Below are positions 8,336 through 28,325 of a stretch of DNA of 64,000 nucleotides, piece after piece; the stretch's first letter is position 1, and the number at the start of each line of letters is the position of its first letter. This stretch comes from Myxococcales bacterium. Lineage in GTDB: Bacteria > Myxococcota_A > UBA9160 > UBA4427. The stretch covers positions 1 to 64,000 of the forward strand of contig JAAZXM010000002.1 of the NCBI GenBank assembly GCA_014240165.1, written 5' to 3'. Below the pieces are notes generated by a model. It ran no database searches. It worked only from the letters and a program-made list of their open reading frames with translations, and had not been told where the DNA came from. Position numbers and translations under genes: made by a program.

Positions 8336-8977
8336 GTGTCCATCGAACTCCTCTGCCGAAAGCTCGGCATGTCTCAAGTCTTCACCGACGCGGGCGAAGC
8401 GGTCCCGGTCACGGTTCTGGAAGCGGGGCCCAACACCGTTGTCCAGATCAAGCGCGAAGACGGGCCCGACGGCTACACCGCCGTGCAACTCGGCTTCGGC
8501 ACCCGGCGTGAAGATCTTTTCAACAAGCCGGCGCGCGGCCACTTCGCCAAGGCGGGTGTGGAGCCCCAGCGTTACCTGCTCGAAAGCCGGTTGACCGCCG
8601 AGGAGGCCGAGGGTCTCGAAGTGGGCCAGCAGGTCACCGCAGAGCTCTTCGAACCGGGACAAAAGGTGGACGCGATCGGGACCTCCAAGGGCCGAGGCTT
8701 CGCGGGCGTCGTGAAGCGCCACGGTTTCAAGATCAAGAAGCGCACCCACGGAACCCACGAGTACTTTCGCCATCCCGGTTCCATCGGTGCCGGTGCCTGG
8801 CCCGCCAAGGTCTTCAAGGGCGGCCGCCAGGCGGGGCAGATGGGGGATGCGCGGGTCACGGTCCAAAACCTCGAGGTCATTCGAGTGGACACCGACAAGA
8901 ACCTCGTCTTCGTGCGCGGAGCCGTACCGGGCCATATCAAGGGCCTGGTCAAACTTCGCCACGCCGTCAAGCAGTAG
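8336..8977 (+). CDS. rplC: 50S ribosomal protein L3
   Basis: A 213-residue L3 starting at the GTG at 8336, five bases after SD AGGAGA. Family landmarks include LLCRKLGMSQVF at the N-terminus, GTSKGRGFAGVVKRH in the middle, and FKGGRQAGQMG near 160-170 with the Gln usually methylated by PrmB. It binds near the 3' end of 23S rRNA and starts large-subunit assembly. It normally sits between rpsJ and rplD in the S10 operon. Here it is alone, followed by the 23S rRNA methyltransferase gene rlmE. Confidence 0.96.
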   Translation: MSIELLCRKLGMSQVFTDAGEAVPVTVLEAGPNTVVQIKREDGPDGYTAVQLGFGTRREDLFNKPARGHFAKAGVEPQRYLLESRLTAEEAEGLEVGQQVTAELFEPGQKVDAIGTSKGRGFAGVVKRHGFKIKKRTHGTHEYFRHPGSIGAGAWPAKVFKGGRQAGQMGDARVTVQNLEVIRVDTDKNLVFVRGAVPGHIKGLVKLRHAVKQ

Positions 8978-8978
8978 A

Positions 8979-9596
8979 CCCGTCGCCCGCTATCAACGCA
9001 AAGACCATTTCCACCAGCGCGCCAAGCGCGAGGGCTTCCGTTCCCGGGCGACCTACAAGCTCGCGGATCTCCAGCGCCGTCACCGCTTGCTCGGGCCGGG
9101 CCAGAGGGTGGTGGACCTGGGCTGCTGGCCCGGGGGTTGGCTCCAGGAGGCTTCCCGCGCGGTGGGCGCCCGGGGCCGGGTGGTGGGAGTGGATCGGGTC
9201 GCCCTGGACCCGCCGCTCGAGAACGCCAATACGGTTTCCTTTGTGGGCGACATGGAAGACGCAAAGGTCCACGAGAAGATTCTTCAGCACCTCGACGGGG
9301 CTTGCGATGTTCTGCTCTCGGACGCCGCTCCCAAGCTGACGGGCGTGCGCGAGGTGGACCGGGCCGCCGAGGAGCGCTTGCTCGAGGCGGTGGAACGGCT
9401 GCTGCCCCTCCTGCTCAAAAAAGAAGGGGACCTGCTGGTCAAGCTTCTCGAATGCCCCGAAGCCCAGAATTTTCAGCGCCGCATGCGCGGCCTCTTTGCG
9501 TCGGCCAAGACCGTGCAGGCCGAGGGCACGCGCAAGGGCAGCAGCGAGCGCTATCTACTGGCCAAGGGCTACCGCCCCGCGGCGCTCGGCGACTAG
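8979..9596 (+). CDS. rlmE: 23S rRNA (uridine-2552) 2'-O-methyltransferase RlmE/FtsJ; start codon unclear
   Basis: SAM-dependent methyltransferase with the K-D-K-E tetrad in place: K in [12 protein letters not shown] in [12 protein letters not shown] in [11 protein letters not shown] and E in [10 protein letters not shown]. The SAM site is [15 protein letters not shown]. Base 8979 is only the left edge of family-like sequence, just after the rplC stop. No ATG/GTG/TTG exists in this frame between the ATG at 8847 (inside rplC, out of frame with it) and a TTG at 9087, which would cut into the domain. A rare start codon, a long overlap or +1 frameshifting from rplC could explain it. Confidence 0.88.
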
Positions 9597-23824: not shown

Positions 23825-25471
23825 ATGCCTGTACATGGCGGAAAACTCGCAGCCCGTGCCCTCAAGAACGCTGGCGTTGAAGTGCTCTTCACGCTCCCGG
23901 GCGGTCATATCATGCCCCTCTACGATGGATGTATCGATGAAGGGATCCGCATCATCGACGTACGCCACGAGCAGGCGGCGGTGCACGCGGCGGATTCATG
24001 GGCGCGCTGCAACCCGGGCAGTATCGGCGTGGCGGCCATCACGGCGGGGCCCGGCGTCACCGACGGGGTGACGGGCATCGCCAACGCCTGGCGGGCGAAC
24101 TCACCGATTCTCATTTTCGGGGGCCAGGGGCCCTTCAGCCAACTCCGCAAGGGCTCGCTCCAGGAGATGGATCACCTGGGCGTCGTACGGCCCATCACGA
24201 AATTTTGCGATGCGGTCTACCAGACCGATCGGATTCCGGAATTCGTGGAGCTTGCCATTCGCCACGCCGTGTCGGGCATCCCCGGGCCGGCCTATCTCGA
24301 AATTCCCATGGATACCTGGAACGGCCAGGTGGAATGGGAGAACGCCACCATGCCGAGGATTCGCACCCAGGGTCCGCGTCTTTCCCCGGATCGCGATGAA
24401 GTGCGAAAGGCAATCGAAGCGCTTCAGGCGGCCGAGCGTCCCATGCTGATGGCGGGCACCAGTGTCAAGTGGTCGAATGCCAGCCCGGCGATGAACCGGT
24501 TCATTTCCGAGACCCATATTCCCACGTACACCAATGGGATGGCTCGGGGCACGGTTCCCTTCGAATCCCCCGAATTTCTCAATCGCTCCCGGCGCGATGC
24601 CATGCAGAAGATCGACTGCATCGTGCTGGCGGGAACCCTGCTCGATTTCCGCATGCGCTTCGGCCAGACGATTCCTCAGGATGCCACCATCATTCAACTC
24701 GAGATGGACGCGACCCTGATCGGCCAGAACCGGGAGACGGATATTCCCCTGGTCGGCAACTTGGGTTGTAGCTTTGATCTGCTGGTGGAGGAGATGAAGA
24801 ACCAGGGCGCGCAACTCGACTTTACGCCCTGGCGTGACCAACTTCGCGAGATCGAGGATGCCGCGGAAGCCAAGGTCCAGGCGAAGCTGAATAGCGATGA
24901 GAGCCCGCTGGATCCCCAGCGCATGTGCCGAGAGGTTCGTGATTGGCTCGATACTCTCGATGCGCCCATCGTGATCGGCGACGGCGGCGATATCGTGGCG
25001 ACGGCGGCCAAGATTCTCCCGGTCCGCGGAGAAGGCGCATGGATGGATCCGGGTCCCCTGGGCACCCTGGGCGTGGGCATGCCCTTCGCCCTGGCGGCGC
25101 AACTCTCCCACCCCGATAAGCGAGTGGTCATCGTCTACGGCGACGGCTCCTTCGGGCTCAACGGTTTCGAATACGATACGGCGGTGCGCTTCGGTCTCCC
25201 GGTGATCGGGATCGTGGGCAACGACGCCGCCTGGGGCCAGATGATGCGACCCCAGGGCGCGATGCTCGGTTGGGATCGTCTGGACGGGACGCTGCTGAAC
25301 CCCACCCGCTACGACAAGGTAGTTGAGGCGCTCGGAGGCCATGGCGAGCACGTGGAGAGCCCAGAGGATTTGCGGCCTGCGCTCGAGCGCGCCGCGGCCT
25401 CGGGCAAGCCGGCACTCATCAACGTGATGATCAAGCAGGACCGGGATTTCAAGGGCGGAATCTACGTCTGA
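23825..25471 (+). CDS. Thiamine-diphosphate-dependent enzyme (acetolactate synthase / 2-hydroxyacyl-CoA lyase-like)
   Basis: A 548-residue ThDP enzyme with SD GAAGGAA. The N-terminal PYR domain has IIDVRHEQAAVHAADSWAR with the catalytic Glu. A central TPP_M domain follows, and the C-terminal PP domain has VIVYGDGSFGLNGFEYD with the metal-binding GDG...N motif ending near IGIVGNDAAW. There is no small regulatory (ACT) subunit gene nearby and no branched-chain operon, so a true IlvB role is doubtful. HACL/oxalyl-CoA decarboxylase-like or other C-C lyase chemistry is possible. Confidence 0.85.
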   Translation: MPVHGGKLAARALKNAGVEVLFTLPGGHIMPLYDGCIDEGIRIIDVRHEQAAVHAADSWARCNPGSIGVAAITAGPGVTDGVTGIANAWRANSPILIFGGQGPFSQLRKGSLQEMDHLGVVRPITKFCDAVYQTDRIPEFVELAIRHAVSGIPGPAYLEIPMDTWNGQVEWENATMPRIRTQGPRLSPDRDEVRKAIEALQAAERPMLMAGTSVKWSNASPAMNRFISETHIPTYTNGMARGTVPFESPEFLNRSRRDAMQKIDCIVLAGTLLDFRMRFGQTIPQDATIIQLEMDATLIGQNRETDIPLVGNLGCSFDLLVEEMKNQGAQLDFTPWRDQLREIEDAAEAKVQAKLNSDESPLDPQRMCREVRDWLDTLDAPIVIGDGGDIVATAAKILPVRGEGAWMDPGPLGTLGVGMPFALAAQLSHPDKRVVIVYGDGSFGLNGFEYDTAVRFGLPVIGIVGNDAAWGQMMRPQGAMLGWDRLDGTLLNPTRYDKVVEALGGHGEHVESPEDLRPALERAAASGKPALINVMIKQDRDFKGGIYV

Positions 25472-25712
25472 ATCGAATGCCAGCGCCTCGCAAGACTCGA
25501 GTCGTCCGCGCCTGAAGGCGCTGGCCGCGAAACGCGATATTTCGTGCCTGACGGATTTTCTCGCGGCGACGGGCCCACTGGCCGTCGTCGCGCTGGAAAC
25601 CACCGGCGCGGCGAAATCCCGCACCGCGGAAGTCCTCGAGTTCGCGGCGGTCCTGCTGACGAAGTCCGATGAGAGCCCCCTCGCACTGCACTCGCTCTTT
25701 CGTCCCGAGCAG

Positions 25713-28325
25713 GTGCTCCCGGATTGGCGTTTGCACGCGGCCGGACGGGTGGCAGAGGACTTCGCCGCCGCCCCGCGTCTTTCCGCCTGGCGAGAGCGCA
25801 TCGCCGAGGCCCTCGAAGGTCGGACGCTGATTGCTCGTGGGGCGGCGGATCTGAAGGCATTCCTGGCCCGGGATATTTCTTCCGCGCTCTCCCGTGCCCG
25901 GGTGCTCGACTTCGACGATTTCCTGGCCTTCACCCACCCGGATCGCTGGCCAGCCGAAACCGCTGCGGGCACGGGCAACCCGCGCGGCGCGCTGGGGCAG
26001 GCCACCCAAGCACTCGACGCGCTGGTGGTCGCCGCCACGGCCTCGGCGCAGGGTGAACTTCGTTATCGCAATGCTCGCCGGGCCCTGGAGCGCCACCTGC
26101 CGGCTTCGCCTTGGCTTCAACTCCTGGCGGCGCCTAGCGGCCTGGAGGAAGAGGGTCCCTCGGTTCGGCAATTCGTCGAGATCGGGGCGTCCGCCGAAGA
26201 GCCCGTACCCAACGACATCGAAGCCATCGCTTCGGCGCTGGCGGATGCGGAGCGTGGGGAGCGCCACTTTCCCGGTTACCGGGTTCGCCAGGAACAAATC
26301 GACTTGATGCGCGGTTTTCACCGGGCCCTTGTGGATGGTGGACATCTGCTCTTGGAAGGCGGGACCGGGGTGGGCAAATCACTGGCCTACCTGGCCGCGG
26401 CGATTCCCTTCGCGATGGAGCGCGCCGAGGCGGGAGCGCGGGATCCATTGATCATCTCTACCCGCACCCGGCTTCTCCAGGATCAATTGCTGGAGAAGGA
26501 CATCGCCGCCGCCGCGCGCATGCTGGGTTATCCGGGTCTGCGCGCGCTGTCCATCAAGGGCCGGGCGAATTATGTCTGCGAACAGCGGCTGCAGGATGTT
26601 CTCGCCCTCGGCGCCGCCCAAGGCCTTTTGGAAGAGGACCGAAACGCCTACGCGGTTCTGACCGCCTGTGCGCGCACGCGACCGGGGGGCGAGGTCGGCT
26701 CGCTCCCGGGTCCGCTCTTGCGTCGGTATCCCTTTCTGCTCGAACTCGTGCAGCGATCGGTGGCGCGCCGGGCCGAGCAGTGCAGCCGGGAGGAATGTGC
26801 GAAGCGGCGCAATTGCCCCTTTGGAAAGCGTCGTGCGGCGCTTTCCAAGGCGCACCTGGTGGTGGCCAATCACGACCTGCTCCTTCGCTGGCCACCGGAT
26901 TATCCCCGCTTTCAACATGTCATCGCCGACGAGGGACACGAATTGGCGGGCGTGGCGGATGAGGTCTACGCCCGGGTGGTTCGTCCCGAGGAATTGCGCG
27001 AGCGCATCGACGAAGTTTTCGGCCCCCCGGATTCGGCGCCGGCAGCGGCGAATACCTTTGCGGGCCTGTTGCCCCGAAAGCAGCGGCTGGAGGCGGCCAA
27101 GGAAGTGAGCGAAGTGAGGCGCTCCCTGGCGCTGGACTTTTCGGGAATTGGCCGAGCGGTGGTGGAGCGAGCCAGCGAATACGGCGAAGTCCAACTGCCC
27201 GCCGATCCCGCCCGTCTCTACCCCCAGGCCGCCCGCCTGGCGGAAATGGCCGCCACGCGTCTCGACGGGCTGGCGCGTCTCGCCGAGGAACTCGATGCAC
27301 GCGCCGAATGGAGTTTCGAGGAAACGCCGCCCAGCCTCTCCGAGGGCCCCACCCCGGTGGAGCGTTCGGCGGAGGCGTTCAGGGAGGCGGCGTTGGGGCT
27401 TCGTCTCGCCTTCGCCGAGGCAGGCGAGGATGCGGTGGCGGCCTTTGATCGACTGGTGGTTCCCTACGATCGTTGGGTGCTTTCGATTCGATCCGTTTCT
27501 CCCGCCGGATCCTTCCACCAACACTTCATGGAGGGGCTCGAGTCATTCGCTGCGGTTTCCGCCACGCTCTTCGTGGGGGGTGATGCTTTCGCGGCCATGG
27601 GCGAACTCGAACTCGAGGAGCGCTCGGCTTTCGGCATAGAGCGGTTGGTGGCGTCGAGTCCTTTTGATTATGCGAATCATATGCGGGTGGCTGCGCTGCG
27701 TTCCCAGCCGGATTCCGAAAATCCCGTGCTGGAGACCGCCCGGGTACTCGCCCTCCTGGCCCGCATGTTGGGTGGGCGCACCCTGGGTCTCTTTACCAGC
27801 CTTCGCCGGATGGAGGAAGTCGCCGAATTGCTCGCGGAGGATCTGGCGGATGAAGCCATCGAGGTGTTGGCGCCGCGCCGGGCCGTGGACGACCCCGGCG
27901 GGCTGGTGGAGCGCTTTCGTGGGCTGCCCGGTGGCGGGGTTCTCCTGGGGTCGCGGACTTTCTGGCAGGGGGTGGATATCCCCGGTGACGACCTTCAGGC
28001 GGTGGTGATCGAAAAATTGCCCTTCGAGGTTCCCACGGAATTGCGGCGTCGCCGGGAGGCCCGGGTGGCGGAATTCGGCCAGAACGCATTCCAACGCTAT
28101 CGGCTGGGGAAGATGTTGCTGAACCTGAAGCAGATGACCGGGCGCCTGATTCGGGGGGAGAGGGATCGCGGGATCGTGGTCATCGTCCAGGCGCGCACCG
28201 ACCGGAACTACTTCGACCAACTCGAAACCGCTTTTCCGCAGGGCACGTCGATTCGCGTGGTGGACACCCCTGAGCTCCCCCGATTGGTGGCGGAGTTGGG
28301 TCTCGGCGGACTTGACCAGACGTGA
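25713..28325 (+). CDS. DinG/XPD-type Fe-S helicase with degenerate N-terminal exonuclease-like domain
   Basis: From the first usable start (GTG 25713) it is 870 residues, but the frame is open from 25431. The upstream stretch has VVALETTG, like the first DnaQ exonuclease motif with its Asp changed to Ala. The expected HN motif is also lost (IARGAADLKAFL), so the nuclease looks dead. The helicase has Walker A LEGGTGVGKSLAYL, four Cys for the 4Fe-4S cluster (NYVCEQR, EQCSREEC, RNCPFGK), the DEGH box and C-terminal motif VI (QMTGRLIRGERDRG). Probably repairs replication obstacles such as R-loops. An ATT at 25446 behind AGGA is a speculative longer start. Confidence 0.88.
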   Translation: MLPDWRLHAAGRVAEDFAAAPRLSAWRERIAEALEGRTLIARGAADLKAFLARDISSALSRARVLDFDDFLAFTHPDRWPAETAAGTGNPRGALGQATQALDALVVAATASAQGELRYRNARRALERHLPASPWLQLLAAPSGLEEEGPSVRQFVEIGASAEEPVPNDIEAIASALADAERGERHFPGYRVRQEQIDLMRGFHRALVDGGHLLLEGGTGVGKSLAYLAAAIPFAMERAEAGARDPLIISTRTRLLQDQLLEKDIAAAARMLGYPGLRALSIKGRANYVCEQRLQDVLALGAAQGLLEEDRNAYAVLTACARTRPGGEVGSLPGPLLRRYPFLLELVQRSVARRAEQCSREECAKRRNCPFGKRRAALSKAHLVVANHDLLLRWPPDYPRFQHVIADEGHELAGVADEVYARVVRPEELRERIDEVFGPPDSAPAAANTFAGLLPRKQRLEAAKEVSEVRRSLALDFSGIGRAVVERASEYGEVQLPADPARLYPQAARLAEMAATRLDGLARLAEELDARAEWSFEETPPSLSEGPTPVERSAEAFREAALGLRLAFAEAGEDAVAAFDRLVVPYDRWVLSIRSVSPAGSFHQHFMEGLESFAAVSATLFVGGDAFAAMGELELEERSAFGIERLVASSPFDYANHMRVAALRSQPDSENPVLETARVLALLARMLGGRTLGLFTSLRRMEEVAELLAEDLADEAIEVLAPRRAVDDPGGLVERFRGLPGGGVLLGSRTFWQGVDIPGDDLQAVVIEKLPFEVPTELRRRREARVAEFGQNAFQRYRLGKMLLNLKQMTGRLIRGERDRGIVVIVQARTDRNYFDQLETAFPQGTSIRVVDTPELPRLVAELGLGGLDQT

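Follow-up and report, generated by a model that had tools for sequence, protein, structure and literature searches.

How is a conserved gene translated when no usual start codon stands at the N-terminus of its protein family? The question arises in a 64,000-nt stretch of DNA from a Myxococcales bacterium (assembly GCA_014240165.1, contig JAAZXM010000002.1, positions 1–64,000; hereafter, the window), in which an rlmE/ftsJ-like gene lies directly behind rplC (Table 1). The rplC stop codon is followed by ACCC and then by GTC GCC CGC TAT CAA CGC AAA GAC, and the stretch opening with GTC GCC CGC TAT encodes a conserved N-terminus, that of an FtsJ-type methyltransferase whose gene ends at 9596. The open frame of this family extends from 8715 to 9596, at +1 relative to rplC. 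A preliminary description of the locus had placed family-like sequence right after the rplC stop in the +1 frame, with no ATG, GTG or TTG between 8850 and 9087. We see the same frame and find the gap to be exact: the rlmE frame of the window holds no such codon from 8850 to 9086, and the next one is TTG at 9087–9089. Upstream in this frame, the canonical codons (ATG at 8847, GTG at 8793 and 8787) all fall within rplC, and a start at the downstream TTG would lose the N-terminal region that includes the conserved TYKL lysine (9057–9059).

Table 1. Features of the window discussed in the text.
Feature	Position	Strand	Basis or remark
rplC (ribosomal protein L3)	8336..8977	+	GTG start, TAG at 8975–8977; TIGR03625, 262.8 bits against a cut-off of 142.9
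ATG inside rplC, in the rlmE frame; nearest canonical codon upstream, rejected as start	8847..8849	+	
Gap of 4 nt between the rplC stop and the proposed rlmE start	8978..8981	+	Read from the sequence
GTC, proposed rlmE start codon	8982..8984	+	Opposite ATG/GTG/TTG of relatives in the alignment
rlmE/ftsJ-like gene for a 23S rRNA 2'-O-methyltransferase (proposed annotation)	8982..9596	+	PF01728, 126 bits
Conserved Tyr codon of Y-x-R-K-D, anchor for distances	8991..8993	+	Alignment of relatives
TTG, first canonical codon downstream in the rlmE frame	9087..9089	+	
DEDDh exonuclease–DinG-type helicase ORF, possible second case	25431..28325	+	No ATG/GTG/TTG in frame at 25431–25712

The product of the gene carries an FtsJ domain (the PF01728 cut-off being 24.1 bits) and matches E. 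coli FtsJ (1eiz) with an E value of 1.8e-24. The NCBIfam equivalog TIGR00438 is its best match in that collection, at 152.8 bits against a cut-off of 300.15, so the gene is called RlmE-like by homology. The catalytic residues of the RlmE/FtsJ family are K-D-K-E; in the alignment, K, D, K and E of the query stand opposite K, D, K and E of human MRM2 (7o9k), and the TYKL lysine also faces a lysine there. On this homology, we name the gene as that of a predicted RlmE/FtsJ-like 23S rRNA methyltransferase, an enzyme whose target would be U2552. Its neighbour rplC is single-copy, with one match in its own genome, and lies outside the S10 operon; at another locus (L151), what we take to be an rpsJ-like ORF is directly followed by a presumably rplD-like one.

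RlmE was found in 75 of 79 genomes of the order and in 86 of 90 genomes of the class (E ≤ 1e-20). Junctions were gathered from search loci, genome contigs and fetched stretches, yielding 99 non-redundant rows after 51 duplicates had been dropped, plus two rows (L261 and L266) that the anchor pattern had missed and that were restored by hand. Distances were anchored on the conserved Tyr, the usual start lying three codons earlier (codon −3). A junction was called non-canonical if it had no canonical start within 12 codons, and linked if an upstream rplC in the same orientation ended 0–250 nt before the Tyr, which held for 70 rows. The junction counts exclude an archaeal row without anchor (L099), a row with GTC and a visible stop whose contig begins 69 nt upstream (L003), and four rows (L084, L086, L094 and L095) that lack rplC, have ATG 23–30 codons up and are better read as N-terminal extensions. 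Three further ATG rows stand outside the 70, two with overlapping genes (L019 and L056) and one with rplC 576 nt away (L213).

At the aligned start, some lineages have ATG, GTG or TTG and others have GTC, GTT, ATT, ATC, CTG, ACG or GCG. Four other genomes of the genus of the window (G001–G004), each with its own contig and together from three projects, share the arrangement, and 42 of the 70 linked junctions have no canonical start; the gap is therefore more than chance. The codon itself is not arbitrary. In the family of the window, the 18 linked rows have GTC (10), GTT (6), GCG (1) and ATT (1) and never GTG, the commonest Val codon (122/248) within the 16 rlmE genes that have GTY at this position. 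Codon −3 is one substitution away from ATG, GTG or TTG in 33 of 40 non-canonical rows, compared with 3–12 of 40 at five codons nearby; in the remaining seven rows ACG, CTG or GTC stands only at −2 or −1, where the best-of-three choice is generous. Because of this near-cognate bias and the missing GTG, we think that the codon is probably still read and has not decayed freely. In three rows (L072, L077 and L081) the rplC stop and the putative start overlap as CTGA, resembling the ATGA of coupled gene pairs. Of the 39 non-canonical rows in which a canonical codon was found downstream, 38 have the first one at +23 or beyond and L009 has it at +20, the TYKL lysine being +22.

Start type follows the distance of the rplC stop. 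Among the 70 linked rows, all 35 junctions with the end of the stop within 18 nt of the Tyr are non-canonical, as against 7 of 35 beyond it; with a limit of 24 nt, the counts are 38/39 and 4/31. Both limits were set after the table had been seen and the rows are related, and the Fisher value of 5e-13 ignores both this choice and the kinship between rows. Four junctions are far yet non-canonical (GTT at 44 nt in L020, GTT at 47 nt in L012, ATC at 32 nt in L071 and ACG at 32 nt in L266) and one is close yet canonical (TTG at 20 nt in L202); the overlapping genes of L019 and L056, with ATG, also run counter to the rule. On an RlmE tree of 88 rows, built before the second order was included, start type and the close or far position each changed at least 13 times, and of 11 independent pairs differing in distance, 7–9 shift the start type as expected and none in the opposite direction (median p 0.008). 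All 10 unlinked rows of the order with visible upstream DNA are canonical, as is the distant L213; nine of these 11 rows come from a single genus (g11) of the family of the window, with ATG in 9/9.

The frame of the rplC stop relative to rlmE varies, being 0, +1 and +2 in 10, 15 and 17 of the 42 non-canonical junctions. Where the frame is 0 (ten rows), the rlmE frame is closed by the stop of rplC itself, 5–9 codons before the Tyr, so that no upstream start can exist. Near relatives have 4–8 nt between the rplC stop and the aligned start codon, and small indels between TAG and CCGTC or CCGTT shift the frame while the codon stays. The CC immediately before GTC or GTT (8979–8984 in the window) is invariant in 12 aligned relatives, though both letters are outside the gene as proposed.

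Family f12, with 11 genomes, belongs to a second order of the class. rplC and rlmE are linked in all of them, with ACG in 10 and GCG in one; inside nine f12 rlmE genes, Thr is encoded by ACC (29), ACG (23) and ACT (5). Two f12 rows (L090 and L096) were already in the set in which the distance link was first seen. The nine unseen rows are all non-canonical, eight within 24 nt and L266 at 32 nt. Family f12 thus repeats the non-canonical start but is no test of the distance rule, since all 11 rows are non-canonical whatever the distance and give no contrast.

A genome-wide relaxation of start codons was considered and rejected. For 25 genes of the S10, spc and alpha operons, which we named from their sequence by recognition, the start column was canonical in 361 of 366 cases from up to 17 genomes of the order; of the other five, four have a canonical codon no more than five codons away, and the last is a gap where a contig ends. 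For rpsK and rpsE, the script chose an internal column and the start was judged by eye. In a comparison of conserved ORFs (G000:C79 with G002:C71 and G003:C235), 86 of 127 have a canonical start in common close to where conservation sets in; of the remaining 41, 12 were inspected and most of these look like overlapping-frame artefacts. A codon-usage scan of 134 ORFs on G000:C79 flagged four, namely rlmE, the exonuclease–DinG ORF, one ORF without Pfam match and a copper amine oxidase in which the first canonical codon precedes all domains. The scan is insensitive, as the GTC-start rlmE genes of G002 and G003 were not flagged; it marked two ORFs in G003, both with ATG further up, and three in G002, one of them a glutathione-peroxidase-like selenoprotein candidate.

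A special initiator tRNA for GUC and GUU was likewise rejected on the six tRNAs compared. Initiator tRNAs have a GGG/CCC anticodon stem and a 1:72 mismatch. The genome gave 41 tRNA matches, 30 loci were run through ARAGORN, and three Met(CAU) and three Val tRNAs were compared; among these six only L128, with anticodon CAU, is of initiator type, and tRNA-Val(GAC) looks ordinary. The mismatch of L128 is U1:U72, that of the E. coli initiator C1:A72.

From the absent canonical start, the conserved codon position, the near-cognate codons, the variable frame and the link to stop distance, all of which the comparison gives, we infer that rlmE is quite likely translated from GUC at 8982–8984 by termination–re-initiation after rplC. 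The ribosome, or its 30S subunit, would finish rplC at 8975–8977, stay close to the stop and restart 4 nt downstream, where the ordinary initiator tRNA (anticodon CAU) would mispair with the near-cognate codon. The predicted N-terminus would be Met-Ala-Arg-Tyr-Gln-Arg-Lys, with fMet presumably first. The weak codon probably holds RlmE, of which catalytic amounts suffice, far below L3, of which every ribosome needs one copy, so that little RlmE would be made per L3; this dosage purpose and a sensitivity to IF3 belong to the same proposal. With a more distant stop, or without linkage to rplC, rlmE would need a canonical start. Short spacing of stop and start, as in coupled gene pairs, is present here, with 4 nt in the window and the stop within 18 nt of the Tyr in 35 of the 42 non-canonical junctions. 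According to the available text of PMC2268962, restart in E. coli depends on a short stop–start distance and is lowered by an excess of IF3, and failed recycling leads to restarts at non-canonical codons (also PMC11194080, in the part available). Counting against a GUC start are the upstream ATG of the window itself and, as the accessible text of PMC11497404 has it, the inefficiency of the E. coli initiator tRNA on CUG.

The most serious competitor, although we think it unlikely, is a restart that ignores the codon altogether: a post-termination 70S ribosome would slide a few nucleotides and resume without a start codon, the ancestral start having decayed. Such a mechanism explains why ATG was lost only at close junctions, and random initiation at non-canonical codons downstream of stops occurs when ribosome recycling factor is inactive, as described in the available parts of PMC2268962 and PMC11194080. 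Decay should yield arbitrary codons, however, which the one-step bias at codon −3 contradicts, and one family keeps GTC or GTT in 16 of its 18 linked rows, another ACG in 10 of 11. RlmE might instead begin at one of the canonical codons inside rplC, as an N-terminal extension overlapping that gene. The window has such codons, as do 13 of the 42 non-canonical rows, but the other 29, including L005 from the genus of the window, have none up to the in-frame stop, and we regard this option as very improbable.

The preliminary description had offered a +1 shift near the rplC stop, creating an L3–RlmE fusion, with a rare start or a single-base assembly error as alternatives. The window frame is indeed +1, yet the fixed frame expected of a programmed frameshift fusion is not seen across the 42 junctions, and among near relatives indels move the frame and the codon is kept. 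As the two frames differ by 0, 1 or 2, a fusion is not the shared mechanism, and we give it almost no credence even for the window. An error of sequencing or assembly, or a dead gene, deserves just as little: all data come from assemblies, metagenome ones among them, but independent genomes share the absent start, and the frame is both unbroken and conserved. Of the earlier interpretation, the rare start is the part favoured here; the link between stop distance and start codon was absent from it.

The proposed re-initiation at a near-cognate codon has known counterparts. infC, encoding IF3, is the classic gene with a non-canonical start (AUU, AUC or AUA). Like infC and sigR, rlmE has a conserved position without ATG, GTG or TTG at the family N-terminus, and it shares with infC a role in translation together with a conserved, discriminated codon at the putative start. 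In 11 of 20 rows of relatives' infC (L131–L133 and L136–L143) the start is readable and is likely ATC, ATT, ATA or CTG, with a GGAGG-like stretch before it in most, as judged by eye. infC relies on a Shine–Dalgarno sequence and autoregulation, according to the text of PMC5472188 at hand. The same source, in the part available, describes Streptomyces sigR, whose start is GTC in 32 species and GTT in two of the 34, as proven by mutation, limited by IF3 and the first documented GTC start. The likeness to sigR is an evolutionarily kept GTC or GTT and a weak start that limits the amount of one partner, which for rlmE is putative. A strong ribosome-binding site, AGGAGGTG, is conserved in sigR, and IF3 represses the gene (PMC5472188, same part); for rlmE, sensitivity to IF3 is putative. 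The rlmE gene stands 4 nt downstream of the stop of a ribosomal-protein gene, and at least six other near-cognate codons occur among its relatives. No strong ribosome-binding site of the sigR or infC kind was found: a 4-nt Shine–Dalgarno-like match is absent from 35 of 40 non-canonical rows, but canonical rows mostly lack it too (24 of 28 linked ones and 22 of 23 unlinked ones), so the missing motif is not specific to the non-canonical ones.

Coupled gene pairs resemble the rplC–rlmE junction in having stop and start a few nucleotides apart; in those described in the available text of PMC6728339 and PMC12548453, the restart codon is canonical. Ribosomes of E. coli can also restart behind a stop, on GUC or on random codons, when the initiator tRNA is mutant or recycling factor is missing, but the cases in the accessible part of PMC2268962 arise under artificial conditions and involve no conserved natural junction. 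A literature search, one query of which named rlmE, found no report of a non-canonical rlmE start. Compared with sigR and infC, rlmE differs, judged from genome comparison, in its place behind a ribosomal-protein stop, in lacking a ribosome-binding site, in its variety of codons and in the link to stop distance.

Other genes may have odd starts as well. The exonuclease–DinG ORF of the window, whose first in-frame canonical codon is at 25713, may be a second case; the preceding gene, which we take to be thiamine-enzyme-like, ends with TGA at 25469–25471. Among the 29 relatives' loci with the exonuclease motif (30 were fetched), four, including that of the window, have no canonical codon between the in-frame stop and the motif, and two more have a single one, at −2. 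The start codon cannot be named, because the N-terminus is poorly conserved. A HAD hydrolase (G000:C79:152242–152967, minus strand, in L172) has a conserved N-terminus with ATT and no canonical codon upstream in frame, and is a possible further case. At G000:C79:125357–125726 (minus strand, in L171) and in G002:C71, TGA directly precedes GLTPQYAG; we take this frame to be glutathione-peroxidase-like, with TGA as in selenocysteine enzymes.

Few bacterial genes are proven to start naturally on a non-canonical codon. We tentatively suggest, as a possibility that falls short of our confidence in the GUC start itself, that across this class of Myxococcota-like bacteria post-termination ribosomes use near-cognate starts (GUC, GUU, ACG, CUG, AUU, AUC and GCG) as a normal, long-kept device, in which spacing is traded against start strength, fixing the ratio of two proteins made from one mRNA; the codons would be family-specific, and further genes, such as that at 25431–28325, would behave alike and be mis-annotated. 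If true, gene callers truncate or miss genes of this kind, and a single operon junction at which many lineages switch between canonical and near-cognate starts with the distance of the stop would be a natural experiment on codon choice in re-initiation.
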